Assembly (NCBI GenBank): GCA_018057015.1
Contig: JAGPES010000004.1
Location: 1 to 32,978, forward strand
Direction of reading: 5' to 3'
Origin: Pseudomonadales bacterium
GTDB taxonomy: Bacteria > Pseudomonadota > Gammaproteobacteria > Pseudomonadales > UBA5518
Length of the DNA stretch: 32,978 nt
The position numbers and the translations under genes are program-made. Below the pieces are notes generated by a model. It was not told where the DNA came from, searched no databases, and saw nothing but the letters and a program-made list of their open reading frames with translations. This document shows positions 6,792-15,757 of this stretch, piece after piece. Each line of letters starts with the position of its first letter. Position 1 is the first letter of the stretch.

Positions 6792-6851
6792 CCTCATCCT
6801 GTGGGTCCTCATCCTGTGGGTCCTGATCCTGTGGGTCCTTATCCTGTGGGT
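6792..6851 (+). repeat. 15-bp tandem repeat, four copies
   Basis: Four units CCTNATCCTGTGGGT follow each other without gaps (6792-6806, 6807-6821, 6822-6836, 6837-6851), differing only at the fourth base. The last copy runs into the REP hairpin at 6845. The unit contains the TGTGGGT foot of the REP, so it looks like repeated copying of the REP edge. A similar 15-bp periodicity, in the opposite direction, lies on the other side of nadE. Confidence 0.9.
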
Positions 6852-7401
6852 CCGAATTTATTCGGACATGTGCCTGCCCCAATGCACCTGTCAGCATGAA
6901 TGCTGACCCACAGGAAGCACCCCCAATGCACCTGTCAGCATGAATGCTGACCCACAGGGAGCCTGAGATACTGCACATGTCCGGCTGAAACCTGACTCAC
7001 CCCCCTGTGGGTCCGAATTCATTCGGACAGGTGCCTTCCCCAATGCACCTGTCAGCATGAATGCTGACCCACAGGAAGCACCCCCAATGCACCTGTCAGC
7101 ATGAATGCTGGCCCACAGGGAGCCTGAGATACTGCACATGTCCGGCTGAAACCTGACTCACCCCCCCCTGTGGGTCCGAATTCATTCGGACAGGTGCCTT
7201 CCCCAATGCACCTGTCAGCATGAATGCTGACCCACAGGAAGCACCCCCAATGCACCTGTCAGCATGAATGCTGACCCACAGGGAGCCTGAGATACTGCAC
7301 ATGTCCGGCTGAAACCTGACTCACACCCCCCTGTGGGTCCGAATTTATTCGGACAGGTGCCTTCCCCAATGCACCTGTCAGCATGAATGCTGACCCACAG
7401 G
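6843..7401. repeat. 163-bp tandem array of REP cloverleaf units, three and a half copies
   Basis: Units start at 6843, 7004, 7167 and 7330 (periods 161, 163, 163), and the fourth stops after about 70 bases. Each unit has a 68-bp core (for example 7006-7073). The core has an outer stem TGTGGGTC/GACCCACA, arm CGAAT-TC-ATTCG, a central arm GACAGGTGC/GCACCTGTC with a 10-base loop, and arm AGCAT-GA-ATGCT. A further inverted REP and a spacer with CATGTCCGGCTGAAACC follow. Copies are nearly identical, so the expansion is recent. No gene is plausible here. The array ends 41 bases before the PP0621-like gene. Confidence 0.92.
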
Positions 7402-7442
7402 GGCTAGAATAGCCCTGAGGTGCTTGCTCAAGGACAAACCCC

Positions 7443-7688
7443 ATGCTGCTGTTCCGCCTGATACTGCTGTTCGCAATGGCGTTCATCGCCTGGCGCATCT
7501 ACCGCCTGGTGATGGCACCGCGGGTGCGCGCGCGCGAACAGCCGCCGAAGCTCAGCGGCGAAGACATGGTGGAGTGCGCGTTCTGCGCCGTGCACGTGCC
7601 GCGCGCACACGCCGTTAGCGAGGCCTCGCGCTGGTACTGCTGCGAGGACCACCGCCGGCAGCACACGCAAGGCAATGCCGGGACCTGA
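7443..7688 (+). CDS. PP0621-like small membrane protein
   Basis: Protein of 81 residues with one N-terminal membrane segment (about 2-22, LLFRLILLFAMAFIAWRIY). A short basic linker and a C-terminal cysteine cluster follow, with CAFC at 49-52 and WYCCEDH near 68, which could bind zinc. It resembles the conserved PP0621 family, found directly before pilS in Pseudomonas and relatives; its role is unknown. It ends three bases before pilS and is probably co-transcribed with it. Family assignment rests on context and the cysteine pattern. Confidence 0.75.
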   Translation: MLLFRLILLFAMAFIAWRIYRLVMAPRVRAREQPPKLSGEDMVECAFCAVHVPRAHAVSEASRWYCCEDHRRQHTQGNAGT

Positions 7689-7691
7689 ACC

Positions 7692-9359
7692 GTGGCGACG
7701 AGCCTCCCGGTGACGCCCGACAGCGGCGATCCGCTGCTCAGGATCTACGCCTGGTACCGCTTCGCGCTGTCGATCCTGCTGCTGCTGAGCTATTTCGCGT
7801 TCAGCCTCGGGCGCACCGATACGGTATTCCTGCCGCTGCTTTACCTCGGCGTCGCGGTTCCCTACGCGGTGCTCAACCTCGCGGTGCTGGTCGGGGTGCT
7901 GGTCCGCCCGCGCCACCCGCGACCGCGTCACCTGTTCCTGATCCTGGTGCTGGACATCGCGGCGCTGGTACTGATCACGCACGCCAGCGGTGGCATCAAC
8001 AGCGGCTTCGCGATCCTGCTGATGGTCACCGTCGCCGCCGCGGCGATCTTCGTGTCGGGGCAGGTCGCCACGCTGGTCGCCGCGGTCGCCAGCCTCGCGG
8101 TACTCGCGGATGCGACCGCACTCGTGCTGATGCGCGACAACGACCTCTCCACGCTGCTGCCCGCCGGCCTGCTCGGCATGCTGCTTTTCATCAGCTCGAT
8201 GCTGGTGCAGCGGCTCGCGGCACGGCTGCGTCTCAGCCAGCAGCTGGCAATCCAGAAGGCCGGCGAAGTCATCGAGCTGCAGCAGCTCAACCAGCTGATC
8301 GTGCAGCGCATGCGCACCGGCATCCTGTTCGTCGACGCGCAGGACCGCGTGCGCATCGCCAACGCATCGGCGGCGCAGCTGCTCGGCATCGACCGCCACG
8401 AGCTCGCGCAGGGCAGCGGCGTGCCGCTGCGTCTGCCGCGCGTGGTGCAGGACCTGCTCGAGCTGTGGCGCGCCAATCCGCAGCGCGCGGAAGCGCCGTT
8501 GCGGCTGCGCCAGAACGGGCCGCTGGTGCAGCTCGCATTCACGCGCCTGAAAGGGCCGAGCGGCGACGGCACGCTGATCTTCGCCGAGGACTTCTCGCAG
8601 ATTGCGCAGCAGGCGCAGCAGCTCAAGCTCGCCTCCCTGGGCCGCCTCACCGCGAGCATCGCGCACGAGATACGCAACCCGCTCGGCTCGATCAGCCACG
8701 CCGCGCAGCTGCTGCGCGAATCGCCGGCGCTGCCGCGGGAGGATTCGCGCCTGGTCGAGATCGTGATCGGCAACGCGCAGCGCACCAACGACGTCATCGA
8801 GAGCGTGCTGACACTCTCGCGCGGCCAGCAACCCCGCCCCGAGATGATCACGCTGGGCGAATGGCTGCCGGACTTCGCCGCCGAACTGCCGTCGCGCGAA
8901 ACCAGCCAGTCGGTGAGCGTGGAGTTCGCCCCCGGCACGGAAGGGCTGAAAGTCCGTGCCGATCCCGTGCACCTGCGCCAGGTGCTGACCAACCTGTGCG
9001 AAAACGGCCTGCGCTACAGCCTGCGCGCCACCGGCGCGGCGTCGTTGCGGCTCGCGGTGCACAGCGACGCGGCGACGGGCCTGACGCAACTCGATGTGAT
9101 CGACCAGGGCCCGGGCGTACCCGAGGAGAATGTACCCAAGATGTTCGAACCGTTCTTCACCACCGAGCACAGCGGCACGGGTCTCGGCCTGTACCTGGCG
9201 CGCGAGCTCTGCGAAGCCAACCAGGTGCGGCTGGAATACCTGCACGGACCCGCCACCGGGAGTTGCTTTCGCCTGAATTTCCCGCACCCCGAGCGGCGCG
9301 GCGCAGCGACGCTGCCTGAGTCCGCGAGCAAGACCACCGCACCAGGAGACACGCGATGA
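7692..9359 (+). CDS. pilS: type IV pilus sensor histidine kinase PilS
   Basis: Inner-membrane kinase that senses pilin levels and controls PilR. The 555-residue protein starts with GTG. It has about six hydrophobic segments (20-180), a coiled-coil linker and a PAS-like domain (about 205-300, GILFVDAQDRVRIANASAAQLLG). The HisKA box SIAHEIRNPL has its phosphorylated histidine at H325, and the HATPase domain shows NLCENGLRYS, DQGPGVP and GTGLGLYLARELC. It overlaps pilR by four bases (ATGA). The fused topology and the pilR neighbour distinguish it from other NtrB-like kinases. Confidence 0.93.
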   Translation: MATSLPVTPDSGDPLLRIYAWYRFALSILLLLSYFAFSLGRTDTVFLPLLYLGVAVPYAVLNLAVLVGVLVRPRHPRPRHLFLILVLDIAALVLITHASGGINSGFAILLMVTVAAAAIFVSGQVATLVAAVASLAVLADATALVLMRDNDLSTLLPAGLLGMLLFISSMLVQRLAARLRLSQQLAIQKAGEVIELQQLNQLIVQRMRTGILFVDAQDRVRIANASAAQLLGIDRHELAQGSGVPLRLPRVVQDLLELWRANPQRAEAPLRLRQNGPLVQLAFTRLKGPSGDGTLIFAEDFSQIAQQAQQLKLASLGRLTASIAHEIRNPLGSISHAAQLLRESPALPREDSRLVEIVIGNAQRTNDVIESVLTLSRGQQPRPEMITLGEWLPDFAAELPSRETSQSVSVEFAPGTEGLKVRADPVHLRQVLTNLCENGLRYSLRATGAASLRLAVHSDAATGLTQLDVIDQGPGVPEENVPKMFEPFFTTEHSGTGLGLYLARELCEANQVRLEYLHGPATGSCFRLNFPHPERRGAATLPESASKTTAPGDTR

Positions 9360-10720
9360 GCAGTCCCGCGATCCTGATCATCGACGACGAGCCGGACATC
9401 CGCGAACTGCTCGCGATGACGGTACGCCGCATGGGGCTGGACGCCTTCTGCGCCGAGAGCCTCGACGGCGCGCGCCGGATGCTGGAAAAGCGCCGCTTCG
9501 ATTTCTGCCTCACCGACATGAAACTGCCCGACGGCACCGGGCTGCAGCTGATCGAGCACGTGCAGCGGCGTCACGACGGCATGCCGGTGGCGGTGATCAC
9601 CGCCTTCGGCAGCGTCGACCTCGCGATCGAATCGATGAAAGCGGGCGCCTTCGACTTCCTGACGAAGCCGATCGATCTCGAACGGCTGCGCAACCTGGTG
9701 AGCAACGCGCTGCGTCTCGGGGCGGCCAACACCACGCTGCAGTGCCCGGACCAGGTGCAGCTGCTGGGTGACACCGAACCGATGGTGCAACTCCGCCAGC
9801 AGATCGTGCGGCTCTCGCGGAGCCAGGCGCCGGTTTACATCACCGGCGAGTCCGGCACCGGCAAGGAACTGGTGGCGCGACTGCTGCACGCCAACGGGCC
9901 GCGCGCCGCCGGACCGTTCGTGCCGGTCAACTGCGGCGCCATTCCCGGCGAGCTGATGGAGAGCGAGTTCTTCGGCCACCGCAAGGGCAGCTTCACCGGC
10001 GCCGTCGCCGACAAGCAGGGCCTGTTCCAGGCCGCCCACGGCGGCACGCTGTTCCTCGACGAAGTGGCCGACCTGCCGTTGCCGATGCAGGTCAAGCTGC
10101 TGCGCGCGATCCAGGAAAAGGCCGTGCGCGCGGTGGGCAGCGAGCAGGAGAGCCGCGTCGACGTGCGCATCCTGAGCGCCACGCACAAGAACCTCGCCGA
10201 GGAGGTCGAGCAGGGCCTGTTCCGCCGCGACCTGTTCTACCGCATCAACGTGATCGAGCTGCGCGTGCCGAGCCTGCGTGAACGCGCCGCCGACATTCCC
10301 TTGATCGCCGAGGCGTGCATCCGGCGCCTGGCCGAGGAGTACAGCACCGCCGCGCCGCGCCTGCACGAGGACGCGCTGCAGGCGCTGGCCGCCTACGCGT
10401 TCCCCGGCAATGTGCGCGAGCTCGAGAACATCCTCGAACGCGCGTTCACGCTGTGCGACGGCAACGTGATCCGCGCGCCCGACCTGCGACTGCCGGGTGC
10501 GAACGCGGCGCCGAGCAGCGCCGCCGCGCCCGCGGCCGAGCATGACAGGCTGCCCGAGTTGCCGGACGTGCCGCTGGAGGAGTACCTCGAAGGCATCGAG
10601 CGGCGCGCGATCATGCGCGCGCTGGAGCTCGAGCGCTGGAACCGCACCGCGGCCGCCAAGCGCCTCGGCATGACGTTCCGCTCGCTGCGCTACCGGCTGA
10701 AAAAACTGGGCATCGACTGA
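9356..10720 (+). CDS. pilR: sigma54-dependent response regulator PilR
   Basis: Activates the major pilin promoter together with RNA polymerase sigma54 when phosphorylated by PilS. The 454-residue protein has a receiver domain (acidic pair D10/D11, phosphoacceptor D54 in [12 protein letters not shown]). An AAA+ domain follows, with Walker A GESGTGKE at about 163-170 and the sigma54 contact loop GSFTGA at about 211-216 (the PilR variant of GAFTGA). The C-terminal Fis-type helix-turn-helix is [19 protein letters not shown]. The last 78 bases recur, diverged, at 13172-13249 inside the TA island. The repeat element begins four bases after the stop. Confidence 0.95.
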
Positions 10721-10723
10721 TCA

Positions 10724-10947
10724 TGTGGGTCGGCATTCATGCCGACATCTGCCTAACGACAAAAGATCAGACATTTCCTACAGACACCCCGCCGCGCTTC
10801 GCCTACCGTGAAACCGCCGCGAAAGGATTCGCGGCATTCCACGGAAGGAGAGCCTCAGGACGAGGTGGGTAGCCAGGGACGGCCCGAACCAGGCCACACT
10901 GCCATGCGCCGGTCAGGATGACTGCCATGGCAGTTGTGGTGCTGGAT
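10724..10947 (+). repeat. dispersed GGA-hairpin repeat, copy A
   Basis: Starts with a REP hairpin (TGTGGGTCGGCAT...) and ends at GGAT, like copies B (11929-12155) and C (14828-15053). Inside, on the plus strand, are stem-loops exposing GGA. Stem GCCGCGAA/TTCGCGGC encloses loop AGGA (10816-10835). A weak stem encloses ACGGAA (about 10838-10849). CCTC/GAGG encloses AGGAC (10853-10865). GCC/GGC encloses AGGGAC (10872-10883). CGGTC/GACTG encloses AGGAT (10910-10924). The end carries the palindrome ACTGCCATGGCAGT. No promoter or terminator could be assigned with confidence. Confidence 0.85.
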
Positions 10948-11029
10948 TCCACTATCCTCGAGCTCTTAGCCACACTCGGCCTGCAACGCCTCGCGGCGCC
11001 CGCTCGCTCGCTCCAAAGTAGCGCACTGG
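10948..11029 (+). pseudogene. 3' scar of a HigA-like antitoxin
   Basis: The bases after repeat copy A match the 3' end of the intact HigA-like gene (12778-12856). TTCCACTATCCTC, ACTCGGCCTGCAA and GCGGCGCCCGCTCGCTC are all shared. In protein terms LATLGLQRLAAPARS corresponds to IAALGLQLHAAPARS. A CTCG duplication near the end shifts the frame, and the rest of the gene is missing. Homology begins exactly where the repeat ends. Confidence 0.75.
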
Positions 11030-11063
11030 ATTTACTGCCCCCGTTGGGTATCACTGTTGCCAT

Positions 11064-11083
11064 GGTCATACCCCGGTCATACC
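11064..11083 (+). promoter_or_regulatory. candidate operator of the ribbon-helix-helix antitoxin
   Basis: GGTCATACC occurs twice, at 11064-11072 and 11075-11083, with an 11-bp period, just before the antitoxin start at 11092. Ribbon-helix-helix antitoxins usually bind such tandem half-sites to repress their own operon. Inference from position and spacing. Confidence 0.4.
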
Positions 11084-11091
11084 CTGTGCCG

Positions 11092-11328
11092 ATGAAAGTA
11101 GAAGTCTCAGTTCCGGATGCGATCTTCGAAGCCGCGGAACGCTTGGCAAAGCAGCGCCACGTCCCTCTCAGTCAGCTTTTTGCGGAGGCATTGCAGGAGT
11201 ATGTCTCCCGGCACGACGGGGACGCGATAGCGGCGAAGCTCAATGAGCTCTACGCATTGGAAGACTCGACCGTAGACGCTGCCTTGACTCGAACGCAACT
11301 AGCTGCCATTGATCATGAAACGTGGTGA
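11092..11328 (+). CDS. ribbon-helix-helix antitoxin of a MazEF-type module
   Basis: Protein of 78 residues beginning MKVEVSVPDAIFEAAERLA, the beta strand and first helix of a CopG/Arc-like DNA-binding fold. HVPLSQLFAEALQEYV follows, then a C-terminal tail (EDSTVDAALTRTQLAAIDHETW) of the kind that wraps the MazF toxin. Its stop overlaps the start of the downstream mazF reading frame by 14 bases. The antitoxin looks intact although its toxin is broken. Family assignment is by fold pattern and neighbour; ParD-like is an alternative. Confidence 0.8.
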   Translation: MKVEVSVPDAIFEAAERLAKQRHVPLSQLFAEALQEYVSRHDGDAIAAKLNELYALEDSTVDAALTRTQLAAIDHETW

Positions 11329-11652
11329 GATCTGATGGGCCTCGTTGCCGGAACCAATGGGTTCCGGGCGCGGACTTCGTCGGCCGGTTCTCATCGCGCA
11401 ATGCAATCCTTTCAATGAAAGCCGCATTTCTACCGTAGTGGTGGCCATAATTGCGTCGAATCTGGCGCTCGCCAACGCCCCGGGGAATCTCCGTCTCAGC
11501 AAGTCGGAGTCGGGATTGCCCAAAGCATCTGCAGTGAACGTATCGCAGGTGATAACCCTCAGTCGCACATTGCTCACTTGCGCGTCAAGGTGTTGTCTGA
11601 CGCAGCAATGCTGCGAGTAAATGATGGAGTTCGGTTGGTGCTCGGACTGTGA
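11315..11652 (+). pseudogene. mazF: MazF/PemK toxin, inactivated by a stop and a frameshift
   Basis: MazF toxins are mRNA-cleaving ribonucleases. The frame begins MKRGEI and then meets TGA at 11333-11335, where relatives have tryptophan (MKRGEIWWASLPEP). After it the same frame continues with WASLPEPMGSGRG, RRPVLIAQCNPFN, TVVVAIIASNLALA and PGNLRLSKSESGLPKAS, a clear MazF/PemK fold. Near 11575-11587 one base is missing, so the natural C terminus (VLSDAAMLRVNDGVRLVLGL, ending at TGA 11650-11652) is in another frame. Internal restart at the ATG at 11345 would give a product lacking the first strand and with a foreign tail. The toxin is almost certainly dead. Confidence 0.85.
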
Positions 11653-11668
11653 CGCCCAGCAATTCGCG

Positions 11669-11713
11669 CCAGCCGAGATCGGCCAGGCATTGCACGTGCA
11701 AGATCGGCCAGTC
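11669..11713 (+). pseudogene. fragment of an AbrB/MazE-type antitoxin gene
   Basis: The bases GCCGAGATCGGCCAGGCATT and the few after them match the intact AbrB-like gene at about 12945-12980 (PAEIRQALHLRDG versus PAEIGQALHVQDR here). Only about 40 bases survive, wedged between the dead mazF and the minus-strand Phd-RelE scar. Confidence 0.6.
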
Positions 11714-11928
11714 TCAGTCGGAAAGCACGCGCAATCGTTCGCTGCGCCACACCCGAACGATGCGCACTCGCGTCGCCTCACGCCGGTCTGCGACTTCATC
11801 CCGGGAGAGCTCCCGGCCGGCTTCCAGATCGCCAAGACCAGCCGGCACAGCGCGCATGAATGCACGCTCCTCCTCTGCCTTCTCGAATTCAGCCACCGAT
11901 TGCATGACAGCCACGCCGCGCCCCCGAC
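11714..11928 (-). pseudogene. fused scar of a Phd antitoxin and a RelE/ParE toxin
   Basis: Read on the minus strand, RGRGVAVMQSVAEFEKAEEE and the following residues are nearly identical to the second half of the antitoxin at 13614-13883. After LSRDEVAD the frame jumps straight to RREATRVRIVRVWRSERL, the C terminus of the toxin at 13304-13609. The antitoxin 3' end and nearly all of the toxin are thus deleted. The antitoxin 5' half is also gone: the sequence stops where repeat copy B begins (11929). The two breaks are separate events. Confidence 0.75.
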
Positions 11929-12155
11929 GTAGGTCGGCATTCATGCCGACGGTGCCCTCCCCGCACACAAAAGATCAGACATTTCCTACAGACACCCCGC
12001 CACGATTCACCTACCGTGAAATCACCGCGAAAGGATTTGCGGCGTTCCACGGAAGGAAGGTCTTAGGAAGAGACCGGTGGCCAGGGACGGCCAAATCCAG
12101 GCCAAGCTGTCATGTGCCGGTCAGGACGACCGCCATGGCAGCAGTGGTCCCGGAT
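11929..12155 (+). repeat. dispersed GGA-hairpin repeat, copy B
   Basis: The REP at the left end has a GTAG foot (GTAGGTCGGCAT). Hairpins with GGA in the loop are as follows. CCGCGAA/TTTGCGG encloses AGGA, with one G-T pair (12025-12042). TTCC/GGAA encloses ACGGAA (12045-12058). GGTCTT/GAGACC encloses AGGAA (12059-12075). TGGCC/GGCCA encloses AGGGAC (12078-12093). CGGTC/GACCG encloses AGGAC (12118-12132). The right end abuts the promoter region of the intact HigBA-like pair. Confidence 0.85.
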
Positions 12156-12216
12156 GAAACCCTCGTTCCAGTGCGCGTTTTGACCACACCAGAATCCGTC
12201 CGTGACTTGCCCGCTC

Positions 12217-12232
12217 GTATCCCATACGATAC
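12217..12232 (+). promoter_or_regulatory. candidate operator of the HigBA-like operon
   Basis: Inverted repeat GTATC (12217-12221) and GATAC (12228-12232), six bases apart, lies 14 bases before the toxin start. The position suits autorepression by the helix-turn-helix antitoxin. A TTGACC at 12180 could be a -35 element but no good -10 follows. Confidence 0.35.
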
Positions 12233-12246
12233 ATTGGCGACTATCA

Positions 12247-12537
12247 ATGATCGAGGTCCGCCAGACAACGACCTACGCAAAGTGGTTCGCTGGCCTGCGG
12301 GATCGGCTGGCCAAGGCCCGCATTGACATCCGCATCCGGCGCCTCTGCCTCGGAAATCCCGGGGATGTGAAACCCGTTGGGGGAGGAGTATCCGAGTTGC
12401 GCATCAGCTACGGACCAGGGTATCGCGTGTACTTCACACAAAAGGACGAAGCGCTTATCGTCCTGCTCGCTGGCGGCGACAAATCATCGCAAGAGCGGGA
12501 CATTCGTCTGGCCAAGGAACTGGCGCACCACTTATAG
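12247..12537 (+). CDS. HigB-like (HI1419 family) addiction module killer protein
   Basis: Toxin of 96 residues of the RelE superfamily, Gp49/HigB group, expected to cleave mRNA at the ribosome. It begins [20 protein letters not shown] and continues with [19 protein letters not shown]. It ends with the family hallmark [32 protein letters not shown] and DIRLAKELA. Length and motifs are complete. Toxin first, antitoxin second is the order normal for HigBA. The start at 12247 matches the family N terminus; an upstream ATG (12202) would add 15 residues. It follows repeat copy B directly. Confidence 0.88.
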
Positions 12538-12547
12538 GAGTTCAGCT

Positions 12548-12856
12548 GTGAGAAGGACCGCAACAACACCGTGGGATCCAGCCGAGCACCTGCGGACGGA
12601 GGAAGACATGGTCGCTTACCTCGAGGCGGCTCTCGAAGAGGGTGAACCCACGCTTGTCGCAGCAGCGCTTGGCGACATTGCGCGAGCGAAGGGCATGACG
12701 CAGGTTGCCCGTGACGCAGGGCTCGGACGCGAAAGCCTGTACAAGGCGCTTTCGCCTTCTGGCAACCCGGAGTTTTCCACCATCCTCAAGGTCATCGCCG
12801 CACTCGGCCTGCAACTCCACGCGGCGCCCGCTCGCTCCAAAGCCGCGCACCGGTAG
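12548..12856 (+). CDS. HigA-like (HI1420 family) helix-turn-helix antitoxin
   Basis: Protein of 102 residues, partner of the toxin 10 bases upstream. DPAEHLRTEEDMVAYLEAAL, then AALGDIARAKGMTQVARDAG, LGRESLYKALSPSGNPEF and STILKVIAALGLQL form the usual small Cro/XRE-like helix-turn-helix of this family. The start is GTG at 12548, with AGGAG eight bases upstream and overlapping the toxin's end region. Its 3' end recurs as a scar after repeat copy A. It probably binds both the toxin and the promoter. Confidence 0.88.
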   Translation: MRRTATTPWDPAEHLRTEEDMVAYLEAALEEGEPTLVAAALGDIARAKGMTQVARDAGLGRESLYKALSPSGNPEFSTILKVIAALGLQLHAAPARSKAAHR

Positions 12857-12897
12857 GGGCGGCAACCATGCTGACCGGTTGGAAGAACATAGCCCAA

Positions 12898-13554
12898 ATG
12901 TTAGCCACCAAAATTTCCGCGAATGGTCGCGTAGTCATACCCGCCGAGATCCGCCAGGCATTGCACCTGCGCGACGGCGATAGCGTTTACTGGGAATTGG
13001 TGGATGGTGAAGCCCGCCTGAGCACACGGCGAACACGATTGGAAAAGGCACGGGCCATCTTCCAGGCCGCTGCCCCAAAACATCGCAGCCGCTCGATGGC
13101 AGATGAACTCATCACGCAACGCCGCAAGGAAGCGACGTCGAGGGCCGTAAATGAAGGCCTAGATGCAAAGGCGCACCGCCGCCGCCAAGCGCCTGGGCAT
13201 GACGTCCCGCGCGCTGCGCTGCCGGGTGAAGAAGCTGGGGATCGACTGAGGCCTGTGAACTGCACGCGCCGACTTTCGGCGCCAGGCAGCTCTGGAAGAG
13301 CGGTCAATCCCGGTCGGGAAGCACGAGCAATCGTTCGCTGCGCCACACCCGCACGATGCGCACTCGCGTCGCCTCCCGCCGCTACACGATGCGAAACGGA
13401 GGGAAAATCAATTCCCGCAGCCACGGCTGATCGAATTCCGGCACTACCCTGCCAATATCCGGATTCCGCTGTAACGATTCGACGCGCTGAAGTATGCCCT
13501 CGAGCATCCGAACCCCGATCTCGGGCACACCCTGCTCGGCGTACCAGATCCTGA
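12898..13554 (+). CDS. AbrB/MazE-type antitoxin with a foreign, read-through C terminus
   Basis: The first ~80 residues are a normal SpoVT/AbrB swapped-hairpin antitoxin: MLATKISANGRVVIPAEIRQ, ALHLRDGDSVYWELVDGEA, then the toxin-binding tail ending near ADELITQRRKEAT. In relatives a stop and a PIN-domain toxin follow. Here the frame runs on, without a stop, through a fragment of a pilR-like 3' end (in a different frame) and antisense through the toxin at 13304-13609 until 13554. The last ~130 residues have no plausible origin as protein. No toxin partner remains. The start at 12898 matches the family; an ATG at 12868 would add ten residues. Confidence 0.6.
   Translation: MLATKISANGRVVIPAEIRQALHLRDGDSVYWELVDGEARLSTRRTRLEKARAIFQAAAPKHRSRSMADELITQRRKEATSRAVNEGLDAKAHRRRQAPGHDVPRAALPGEEAGDRLRPVNCTRRLSAPGSSGRAVNPGREARAIVRCATPARCALASPPAATRCETEGKSIPAATADRIPALPCQYPDSAVTIRRAEVCPRASEPRSRAHPARRTRS
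13172..13249 (+). pseudogene. second, diverged copy of the pilR 3' end
   Basis: These 78 bases align without gaps to 10643-10720, the Fis-type helix-turn-helix and stop codon of pilR, with 9 differences by my count (about 88% identity). Translated it reads [19 protein letters not shown], then KKLGID and stop. Five of the nine differences are synonymous, which suggests that it comes from a once-functional pilR rather than from random decay of a local copy. Nothing upstream of this segment resembles pilR. Confidence 0.85.
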
Positions 13555-13609
13555 TCGCCTCCAGATCCGCAACTGCGGATTCGGCAAAGCTGATCGTCAA
13601 TTGGCCCAT
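13304..13609 (-). pseudogene. RelE/ParE-family toxin with an amber stop in the last third
   Basis: The frame starts MGQLTISFAESAVADLEAIR and continues with IWYAEQGVPEIG, LQRVESLQRNPDIGRVVPEF and LRELIFPPFRIV, typical of ParE/RelE plasmid stabilisation toxins. At 13384-13382 the codon is TAG where relatives have a tyrosine (RIVYRR). The frame then continues cleanly with RREATRVRIVRVWRSERLL and VLPDRD to TGA at 13304. A C-terminal strand of the fold is therefore lost. It lies four bases after the antitoxin stop, in the normal antitoxin-toxin order. Confidence 0.8.
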
Positions 13610-13613
13610 TGCA

Positions 13614-13883
13614 CTACACCAGCCCAAGCCGCTCTGCGACTTCATCCCGGGAGAGCTCCCGGCCGGCTTCCAGATCGCCAAGACCAGCCAGCACAGCGCG
13701 CATGAATGCACGCTCCTCCTCTGCCTTCTCGAATTCGGCCAACGATTGCATGACCGCCACGCCGCGCCCCCGACTTGTCAACAGTACGGGCCGGTGCGCC
13801 TCGGTAGCATGCTTCACAACACGCCCGGGATTGACCTTCAAGTCAGAAAGCGGAATGACGTCTTCGGAAAATTTCGCACGCAT
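13614..13883 (-). CDS. Phd/YefM-family antitoxin
   Basis: Protein of 89 residues: MRAKFSEDVIPLSDLKVNPG, RVVKHATEAHRPVLLTSRGR and GVAVMQSLAEFEKAEEERA. This is the Phd fold that binds operator DNA with its N terminus and the RelE/ParE toxin with its C terminus (LEAGRELSRDEVAERLGLV). The start at 13883 is preceded by GGAGG five bases upstream, which is why I prefer it to the ATG at 13904. The gene looks intact; its toxin carries a premature stop. A shortened relative is fused into the scar at 11714-11928. Confidence 0.88.
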   Translation of the reverse strand: MRAKFSEDVIPLSDLKVNPGRVVKHATEAHRPVLLTSRGRGVAVMQSLAEFEKAEEERAFMRAVLAGLGDLEAGRELSRDEVAERLGLV

Positions 13884-13913
13884 GATCGATGCCTCCGGAT
13901 CCATGACACCGGC

Positions 13914-13959
13914 ATATTAGCACCCAATATTGGAACCTTTAACAGCACCTTTAACAGCA
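13914..13959 (-). promoter_or_regulatory. promoter/operator region of the Phd-type module
   Basis: On the minus strand TAATAT (13919-13914) is a good -10 element 31 bases before the antitoxin start. Upstream of it lie the perfect palindrome CCAATATTGG (13924-13933) and two exact copies of CCTTTAACAGCA, in plus-strand terms (13936-13947, 13948-13959). The palindrome overlaps the expected spacer, as an autorepression site would. Binding is inferred. Confidence 0.5.
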
Positions 13960-13983
13960 CCTATCCAGCAGATCCGAATGCCC

Positions 13984-14019
13984 CTCAAGACGACTGCCAT
14001 GGCAGCAGTGGCTCTGGAT
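13984..14019 (+). repeat. GGA-hairpin repeat, fragment D (right end only)
   Basis: Contains the terminal part shared with copies A-C: CGACTGCCATGGCAGCAGTG and the closing GGAT. Its last hairpin is broken (CAAGACG instead of CAGGACG). As with A and B, a toxin-antitoxin operon begins shortly after its right end. Confidence 0.75.
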
Positions 14020-14058
14020 TGCCCGATGCCGACGACACGGTTTGACCGATGCAGCCGT

Positions 14059-14091
14059 TATATGTACGTTGTATATGTACATATCTGTACA
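14059..14091 (+). promoter_or_regulatory. operator of the Phd/VapC operon
   Basis: TATATGTAC occurs at 14059-14067 and 14072-14080 (13 bp apart). The second copy lies in the perfect palindrome ATATGTACATAT (14073-14084), and TGTACA follows at 14086-14091. The AT-rich cluster sits 12-44 bases before the antitoxin start and stands out in a GC-rich region. Probable overlapping promoter and antitoxin binding sites. Confidence 0.6.
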
Positions 14092-14102
14092 GGGAAAGCC
14101 TT

Positions 14103-14345
14103 ATGCTGCAAATCACCGCCACTGAACTGCGCAGGCACCTGTTCGAGTACCTGCAACGCGTCGAGCAGGGTGAATCGATCCAGATCAAGCTGAACGGCCG
14201 GGTAATCGGTTGCCTGGGTCCGCAGCACGACGACAGCGAGAAGGCTCTGGCGCGGCTGCGGGAACTCGGCAAAACAGCGCATATTGGCGACATCCTCGCG
14301 CCAACGGATGAAGCGCCCTGGAACGCCGATGAAAACAATCTGTGA
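14103..14345 (+). CDS. Phd/VapB-type antitoxin
   Basis: Protein of 80 residues starting MLQITATELRRHLFEYLQRV, then EQGESIQIKLNGRVIGCLGP, the Phd/YefM N-terminal fold with the short strand that contacts DNA. The acidic C terminus (DEAPWNADENN) is typical of antitoxins that mask a PIN-domain toxin. It overlaps the toxin gene by 17 bases. AGGG lies nine bases before the ATG. Appears complete. Confidence 0.88.
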   Translation: MLQITATELRRHLFEYLQRVEQGESIQIKLNGRVIGCLGPQHDDSEKALARLRELGKTAHIGDILAPTDEAPWNADENNL

Positions 14346-14724
14346 TACCCATGCGTTGATCTGGTGGTGCCTCCAGCCCGACAAACTCGGCGCCGCCTCG
14401 TATCGCCATATCCGGTCGGCGCTCGACCACGACACCCTGATGTTCTGCGACATCTCTTACTGGGAGATCGCCATGTTGCTGAAGAAGGGGCGATTCAGCG
14501 TGAGCGTCGGCATCTCGGAGTTCCTCGATCTGCTGACGCGCGCCTGCGGCTCATCAGTACAACCGATAACCCCGGCCATTGCGGAAGCCTCGCAGGACGG
14601 ACGATTCATGCATGGCGACCCCGCGGACAGGATCATAGGAGCGACCACACTGGTCCTGAACGCCACCCTGATCACGGCTGATCGTCAGCTGCAACAGGTG
14701 CCAGGGCTGCGTTGCGTCTGGTGA
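14329..14724 (+). CDS. vapC: VapC-type PIN-domain ribonuclease toxin
   Basis: Toxin of 131 residues of the PIN family, expected to cut tRNA or rRNA with Mg2+. The acidic active site is complete: D6 in ICDTHALIWW, E46 in SYWEIAML, and D97/D100 in MHGDPADRIIGAT, followed by LITADRQL. The N terminus MKTICDTHALIWWCL is characteristic of the VapC group paired with Phd-like antitoxins. No disabling mutation is seen, in contrast to the two toxins upstream. Overlapping start with the antitoxin indicates coupled translation. Confidence 0.92.
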   Translation: MKTICDTHALIWWCLQPDKLGAASYRHIRSALDHDTLMFCDISYWEIAMLLKKGRFSVSVGISEFLDLLTRACGSSVQPITPAIAEASQDGRFMHGDPADRIIGATTLVLNATLITADRQLQQVPGLRCVW

Positions 14725-14850: not shown

Positions 14851-15053
14851 ATCTGCCTAACGGCAAAACATCAGACATTTCCTACAGACACCCCACCACG
14901 ATTCACCTACCGTGAAACCGCCGCGAAAGGACTCGTGGCGTTCCACGGAAGGGAGGTCTCAGGACGAGACCTGCGGCCAGGGACGAGGCCCAATCCAGGC
15001 CACGCTGCCATGTGCCGGTCAGGACGACCGACATGGCAGCGGTGGCCCCGGAT
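14828..15053 (+). repeat. dispersed GGA-hairpin repeat, copy C
   Basis: Same layout as copies A and B, from REP to the terminal GGAT. Loops with GGA are as follows. GCCGCGA/TCGTGGC encloses AAGGAC, with one G-T pair (14920-14939). GGTCTC/GAGACC encloses AGGAC, perfectly paired (14955-14971). GGCC/GGCC encloses AGGGACGA (14975-14990). CGGTC/GACCG encloses AGGAC, perfectly paired (15016-15030). No gene is seen between vapC and fimT (14725-15166) apart from these repeats. Confidence 0.87.
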
Positions 15054-15120
15054 GATGGCAACCCCACGTCCCCGTCCGCTCGGAAGCATGGGGCGACGCG
15101 CCTCGAGCGCACGCCCTGAT

Positions 15121-15160
15121 CCGGCGCGAAAGGATTCGCGCCCGTCCACGGAAGGAGATT
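15121..15160 (+). promoter_or_regulatory. repeat fragment E forming the fimT leader and ribosome binding site
   Basis: Carries the first hairpin of the repeat, here GGCGCGAA/TTCGCGCC around AGGA (15123-15142), followed by TCCACGGAAGGAG. GGAAGGAG ends nine bases before the ATG of the prepilin gene at 15167 and is its Shine-Dalgarno sequence. One GGA in a hairpin loop plus one in the Shine-Dalgarno is the classical arrangement of CsrA/RsmA-repressed leaders. Regulation is inferred; the sequence match to the other copies is direct. Confidence 0.65.
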
Positions 15161-15166
15161 TGCGAA

Positions 15167-15757
15167 ATGAACGCGCAGCGCCCATGGATGGGCCCGCCCC
15201 GCAGATACGATCGCGGCATGACGCTGGTCGAGTTGCTGGGCGTGCTCTCGATACTCGCCATCCTGATGGGGATCGGCATTCCCGGCATGCACCGGTTGGT
15301 GGCGGGTACGCGCGCCGAGAGCAGCATGACGGAGCTCTTCGGCTTGCTCGGTTCCGCGCGGCAGACGGCAATCCTCACGCGCCGCGAAGTGACGCTGTGC
15401 GGGACAGCGAACGGCACGGCCTGCTCGAGGAATTGGGACGGTATGCCGACGCTGGTGTTCATCGACAGCAACCGGAACCGGCGTGCGGACGAGAACGAAG
15501 AGATATTCCAGGTGGCGCAAACGACTGGCTCGGCGCGCATACGCTGGAGCGCCTCTGGCAACCGCAATTACCTGCGCTACCGCCCGGACGGCGGCGTGAA
15601 GGAATTCGGCAGCTTTACCTATTGCCCCGAGGACGGCGACGCACGCGGGGCGCGCCAGATCATCCTGAGCGCGACCGGCCGGCCGCGCTCCGCAGTGGAC
15701 AGCGACGGCGACGGAATCGTCGAGGACCAGAACGGCATACCACTCAGCTGTAACTGA
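15167..15757 (+). CDS. fimT: FimT/GspH-family minor prepilin (set 1)
   Basis: Minor pilin of 196 residues for type IV pilus assembly, processed by PilD. Leader MNAQRPWMGPPRRYDRG is cut after G17. The mature protein starts MTLVELLGVLSILAILMGIG with the conserved glutamate at +5 (E22), then the GspH/FimT domain (GLLGSARQTAILTRREVTLC) and two cysteines. It stands apart from the rest of set 1 and converges with it; the stop is 65 bases from the end of pilE. FimU is an equally good name. The start codon is fixed by the strong GGAAGGAG upstream. Confidence 0.85.
   Translation: MNAQRPWMGPPRRYDRGMTLVELLGVLSILAILMGIGIPGMHRLVAGTRAESSMTELFGLLGSARQTAILTRREVTLCGTANGTACSRNWDGMPTLVFIDSNRNRRADENEEIFQVAQTTGSARIRWSASGNRNYLRYRPDGGVKEFGSFTYCPEDGDARGARQIILSATGRPRSAVDSDGDGIVEDQNGIPLSCN

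Follow-up and report, generated by a model that had tools for sequence, protein, structure and literature searches.

The window, by which we mean the whole 32,978-nucleotide stretch of DNA analyzed here, contains a locus bordered upstream by a pilR-like gene for a sigma-54 response regulator and ending in fimT, a prepilin gene whose product has N-methylation and GspH domains (Table 1). Near its C-terminus FimT reads ATGRPRS; the GRPR motif is found in FimT of all six species of the genus, and a GRxR motif is the mark of DNA-binding FimT (PMC8897410). A search for related loci with FimT as the query gave no match. Between pilR and fimT lie three full copies (A, B, and D) of an element of about 140 nt, the tail of a further copy, and a short fragment (E) immediately before fimT. 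The stretch between the copies (10951-14724) is occupied by toxin-antitoxin pieces, namely RHH, a Gp49-like/HI1420-like pair, MazE-like, Phd/YefM (twice), and PIN. The 3' end of pilR is duplicated at 13172-13249, and a 3' fragment of the HI1420-like antitoxin gene follows copy A at 10947-11009; both duplicated fragments would be traces of multiplication of the locus. Outside the locus, positions 6839-7488 hold four tandem repeats of 161-163 nt, 60-99% alike, that are made up of REP-like palindromes.

Table 1. Genes, predicted RNA elements, and candidate promoter motifs of the pilR-fimT locus (positions in the window)
Feature	Position	Strand	Basis
pilR-like gene for a sigma-54 response regulator, bordering the locus upstream	9356..10720	+	Pfam Response_reg, Sigma54_activat, HTH_8
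Predicted promoter box of copy A, CAGACATTTCCTACAGAC; -10-like TACCGT at 10804-10809	10768..10785	+	
Putative sRNA, copy A: GGA-loop hairpins H1, mini-hairpin, H2, H3, and long terminal stem	10810..10950	+	Covariance model, E = 1.6e-29
Predicted promoter box of copy B; -10-like TACCGT at 12012-12017	11976..11993	+	
Putative sRNA, copy B	12018..12158	+	Covariance model, E = 8.4e-29
Remnant, 3' end of a further copy	13985..14020	+	BLAST, 83% identity over 36 nt; repeat family D8
Predicted promoter box of copy D, the closest box ahead of fimT; -10-like TACCGT at 14908-14913	14872..14889	+	
Putative sRNA, copy D, immediately before the fimT leader; terminal stem without U-tract	14914..15057	+	Covariance model, E = 3.7e-27
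Fragment E, fimT proximal leader, homologue of sRNA H1 plus linker	15121..15158	+	BLAST, covariance model
Leader hairpin, 8 bp, loop AGGA at 15131-15134; candidate high-affinity CsrA site	15123..15142	+	
CCACGGAAGGAG, fimT Shine-Dalgarno sequence and candidate second CsrA site	15146..15157	+	
fimT, prepilin gene with C-terminal GRPR	15167..15757	+	Pfam N_methyl, GspH

Fragment E reads CCGGCGCGAAAGGATTCGCGCCCGTCCACGGAAGGAGA. The original prediction placed a hairpin with an AGGA loop and the Shine-Dalgarno sequence of fimT directly before the start codon, and this anatomy is confirmed: the hairpin arms are GGCGCGAA-AGGA-TTCGCGCC, followed by CGTCCACGGAAGGAGA, and the ATG lies downstream of CCACGGAAGGAG. 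E is the leader and ribosome-binding site of fimT, and it has the two-site CsrA layout that had been proposed, with 18 nt from the GGA of the hairpin to the GGA of the Shine-Dalgarno sequence. The minimum free energy fold of the leader consists of the 8-bp hairpin and a small TCC(ACGGAA)GGA hairpin over the Shine-Dalgarno sequence; taken by itself, the leader hairpin is no rarer than in shuffled sequences (57/500). Of its 38 positions, E shares 34 with copy A and 29 each with copies B and D; in the stem, GCC..GGC of copy A is replaced by GGC..GCC, a compensated swap. E was recovered both by BLAST across the genome (E = 2e-7) and by a covariance model derived from the complete copies (E = 1.8e-7), and because of this significance we regard it as a real partial copy and not a chance resemblance.

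Each full unit comprises, in order, a promoter box TCCGANATNTCCTACAGAC, a -10-like TANNNT, hairpin H1, a mini-hairpin CC-ANGGAN-GG, hairpins H2 and H3, and a long terminal stem. All five congeners examined (G001 to G005) carry one homologous RNA of about 140 nt per genome, between pilR and fimT and without a REP. A covariance model (R1) built from eight sequences (alignment A1) finds the element in 6/6 genomes of the genus, with E-values of 1e-25 to 1e-32, and among the other searched genomes of the order (294 in all) gives a single weak, non-syntenic match; no convincing occurrence of the element emerged from those sampled outside the genus. Weak matches of the model elsewhere in the class, at L123 (G014), L200 (G456), L202 (G532), and L204 (G428), show two to four consecutive ANGGA-type hairpins; we rejected them as occurrences of the element, since they appear to be either chance matches or multi-GGA hairpin RNAs of separate origin, and they are possibly unrelated Csr-type sRNAs, located away from fimT.

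The predicted structure is supported by covariation. Compensated changes occur in 14 of 29 stem pairs, 94.6% of the alignment cells are paired as against 36-46% when the partners are slid, and the covariation value is 0.459, compared with 0.208 in shuffles. The sequence A-N-GGA in the loops of H1, the mini-hairpin, and H2 is invariant in all eight sequences, and this combination of fixed loops and free stems gives the element the look of a CsrA-binding RNA (cf. PMC7652899). There are two to five GGA-loop hairpins in each ~140 nt, where dinucleotide shuffles have about 0.3-0.55, an excess at the 1% level or better in seven of the eight copies; the spacing between the first and second GGA is 18 nt in all eight. 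A U-tract follows the terminal stem in G002, G003, and G005 and is absent after the window copies. No Rfam family matches the locus in the window or in the five congeners, and an RsmZ model run over the six genomes gave sub-threshold matches only, those inspected not being GGA-hairpin RNAs. In G001 and G004 there was a weak similarity to the Xanthomonas sRNA sX7 (RF02226), at 21 bits (E = 1.4), far below the gathering score of 55 and most likely reflecting only a shared style of GGA hairpins. The ~140-nt RNA is best read, from sequence and predicted structure, as a new Csr/Rsm-type sRNA family. It resembles CsrB/CsrC and RsmX/Y/Z in being intergenic, in packing several GGA-loop hairpins into about 140 nt, and in having a terminal stem with a U-tract in some congeners, but differs from them in lacking an Rfam match, in its fixed position beside pilR-fimT, and in its triplication here with REP heads and toxin-antitoxin cassettes.

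A csrA gene is present in 5/5 congeners, with a canonical sequence in G002; none was found in the 88%-complete draft of the genome studied here (G000), where its absence is probably an assembly gap. The fimT leader resembles the CsrA-repressed leader of Escherichia coli glgC, in which a hairpin-loop GGA is combined with a Shine-Dalgarno GGA at bridging distance, CsrA being able to bridge sites 10-63 nt apart (PMC7652899, where the SELEX and bridging data are reviewed). It differs from glgC in having a DNA-uptake prepilin as its target and in its homology with the 5' end of the adjacent, putatively titrating RNA. In Legionella, comEA-type mRNAs are controlled post-transcriptionally through their 5' leaders by RocC, a ProQ/FinO protein that represses together with a dedicated base-pairing sRNA, RocR; here, in contrast, repression would come from a CsrA-type protein, and the sRNA would lift it.

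Comparison across the genus shows which parts of the leader are held in common. All six species have the ribosome-binding-site motif TCCANGGANGGAG unchanged, and in each of them the Shine-Dalgarno sequence lies within a small hairpin. An upstream GGA-loop hairpin is present in the proximal fimT leader of four species (the window, G002, G003, and G005) and missing from those of G001 and G004; its GGA stands 18 nt from the Shine-Dalgarno GGA in the window and G002, and 32-34 nt in G003 and G005. Outside the genus, GGA hairpins at fimT are not significantly enriched over control genes (p about 0.15), with suggestive single cases across the order in G008, G024, and G052. In G002, fimT has a box of its own, then the hairpin GGTGCAC-AAGGA-CGTGCGCC, then CTCCAGGGACGGAG and the ATG; the sRNA forms a unit apart, farther upstream, which has a box too and whose stem is followed by GGTTTTG. 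Because TCCANGGANGGAG is invariant in six species, and because G002 has a box-hairpin-Shine-Dalgarno leader distinct from the sRNA, E would correspond to the native fimT leader. The idea that a repeat had become the leader of this gene is thus not borne out, as the element is native to the pilR-fimT interval throughout the genus and is single-copy and free of REPs in the congeners. Instead, E was probably homogenized with, or copied from, the neighboring sRNA copies; the near match with copy A suggests that one was copied from the other, or altered by gene conversion, in this genome, in either direction.

The box TCCGANATNTCCTACAGAC, followed at a near-constant spacing (N~17) by TANNNT, precedes all sRNA copies, and it is common to the sRNA, fimT (in G002 only), comEA, and genes for Rpn-family nucleases. 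Exact or near-exact boxes lie before comEA in G000, G003, G004, and G005 and before Rpn genes in G001, G003, and G004; ahead of comEA in G001 and G002 the box is degraded. Loci with the box-N~17-TANNNT arrangement are L140, L151, L153, and L177 for comEA and L143, L144, L149, L155, and L164 for Rpn. The comEA leader retains a hairpin in all six species, with one compensated pair and some G-U changes, a covariation that is weak on six sequences; its loop is ANGGA in five of the six, and in the three leaders measured the Shine-Dalgarno GGA follows the hairpin GGA by 30-33 nt. The shared box and the comEA leader hairpins point to a DNA-uptake regulon, and we propose TCCGANATNTCCTACAGAC as a candidate competence box. 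Outside the genus it is clear only at comEA of G006 and otherwise not clearly present, and among the literature matches listed for the box string all were unrelated. The GacA/UvrY site has the consensus TGTAAG-N6-CTTACA. The box shares only a CCTACA half with that consensus and is no clear match to it; with its box shared by comEA and Rpn genes and no clear GacA/UvrY site, the sRNA appears to differ in this respect too from CsrB/CsrC and RsmX/Y/Z.

Taking these observations together, we put at about two in three the probability that CsrA represses fimT and that A, B, and D are a genus-specific Csr/Rsm-type sRNA that titrates CsrA and has a promoter box in common with comEA, Rpn genes, and, in G002, fimT. 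A CsrA dimer would hold the GGA of the hairpin loop and that of the Shine-Dalgarno sequence, 18 nt apart, and so block translation of fimT, whereas the A, B, and D sRNA made between pilR and fimT would titrate CsrA as a set of decoys. CsrA would repress comEA as well, and activation at the box would produce these mRNAs and the sRNA that de-represses them at the same time. In this genome the sRNA unit has been multiplied together with the toxin-antitoxin cassettes. The further suggestion of the original prediction, that the full copies resemble Csr sponges and that a putative titrator and its target, both next to a pilus locus, are related to each other, is greatly strengthened by the five-congener comparison.

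A different and rather unlikely account is that the RNA serves fimT only in cis, as a long leader or attenuator transcribed from a single box through into the gene; CsrA would act on it in cis, at the multiple GGAs or by control of the terminal stem, and no sponge would act in trans. Such a leader would fit the position of the RNA, which ends roughly 40-110 nt before the start of fimT, and the presence of a box only upstream of the RNA in G001, G003, G004, G005, and the window. It would also fit the missing U-tracts of the window copies and the lack of any promoter found before E; the window fimT, having no box of its own, may be transcribed from the promoter of copy D. The missing U-tracts and the missing fimT box make a free-standing sRNA less certain in this species. 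However, G002 has a second, separate box for fimT, GGTTTTG follows the stem at the end of its sRNA, U-tracts occur also in G003 and G005, and copies A and B of the window keep their structure although kilobases of other genes separate them from fimT. That some regulator other than CsrA binds the hairpins, or that they work through RNA structure alone (for example, by occluding the ribosome-binding site), is improbable: the failure to detect csrA in the draft genome and the small hairpin around the Shine-Dalgarno sequence in six of six species would agree with it, but what is invariant is the ANGGA loop with its 18-nt spacing, the signature of CsrA, while the stems vary freely.

The element had also been described as a repeat family of the genome, and this holds only for its REP head of about 35 nt, which is dispersed (109 matches) and stands directly before each full copy; the remainder was found by genome-wide BLAST at the pilR-fimT locus alone, as A, B, D, E, and the tail remnant. 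REP palindromes, GTGGGTCGGCATTCATGCCGAC, number about 100 in the genome and are often clustered. The reading that the copies are REP-associated or mobile repeats of no regulatory role, with E a chance scrap supplying a Shine-Dalgarno sequence, rests on this association with REPs and is largely refuted and very improbable, since the non-REP part is confined to one locus and orthologous at the same site in congeners that lack the REP there, with covarying stems and invariant GGA loops; we rejected a mobile-repeat origin.

Returning to titration of CsrA by A, B, and D, the open-access literature yielded nothing pertinent on CsrA in connection with sRNA control of fimT or comEA. The novelty of the proposal lies in the RNA family and its wiring, the mechanism itself being known from glgC leaders and from CsrB/RsmZ sponges. 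Somewhat short of an even chance, in our estimate, is the fuller proposition that the sponge sRNA family and the CsrA-repressed leader share both ancestry and promoter, such that one activator would switch on the DNA-uptake mRNAs (fimT and comEA) along with the decoy that frees them. Were the shared ancestry to hold, a competence circuit would be wired by a sponge derived from, or homogenized with, the leader of its own target. If the proposals made here are right, an uncultured freshwater genus of Gammaproteobacteria would possess a new Csr-type sRNA family, and a shared promoter box would tie its Csr system to DNA uptake. The locus would then be a concrete example in which a regulatory sponge is related to its target mRNA, and would make testable both the origin of CsrA sponges and the tuning of a regulon by sponge copy number, which is three here and one in the congeners.
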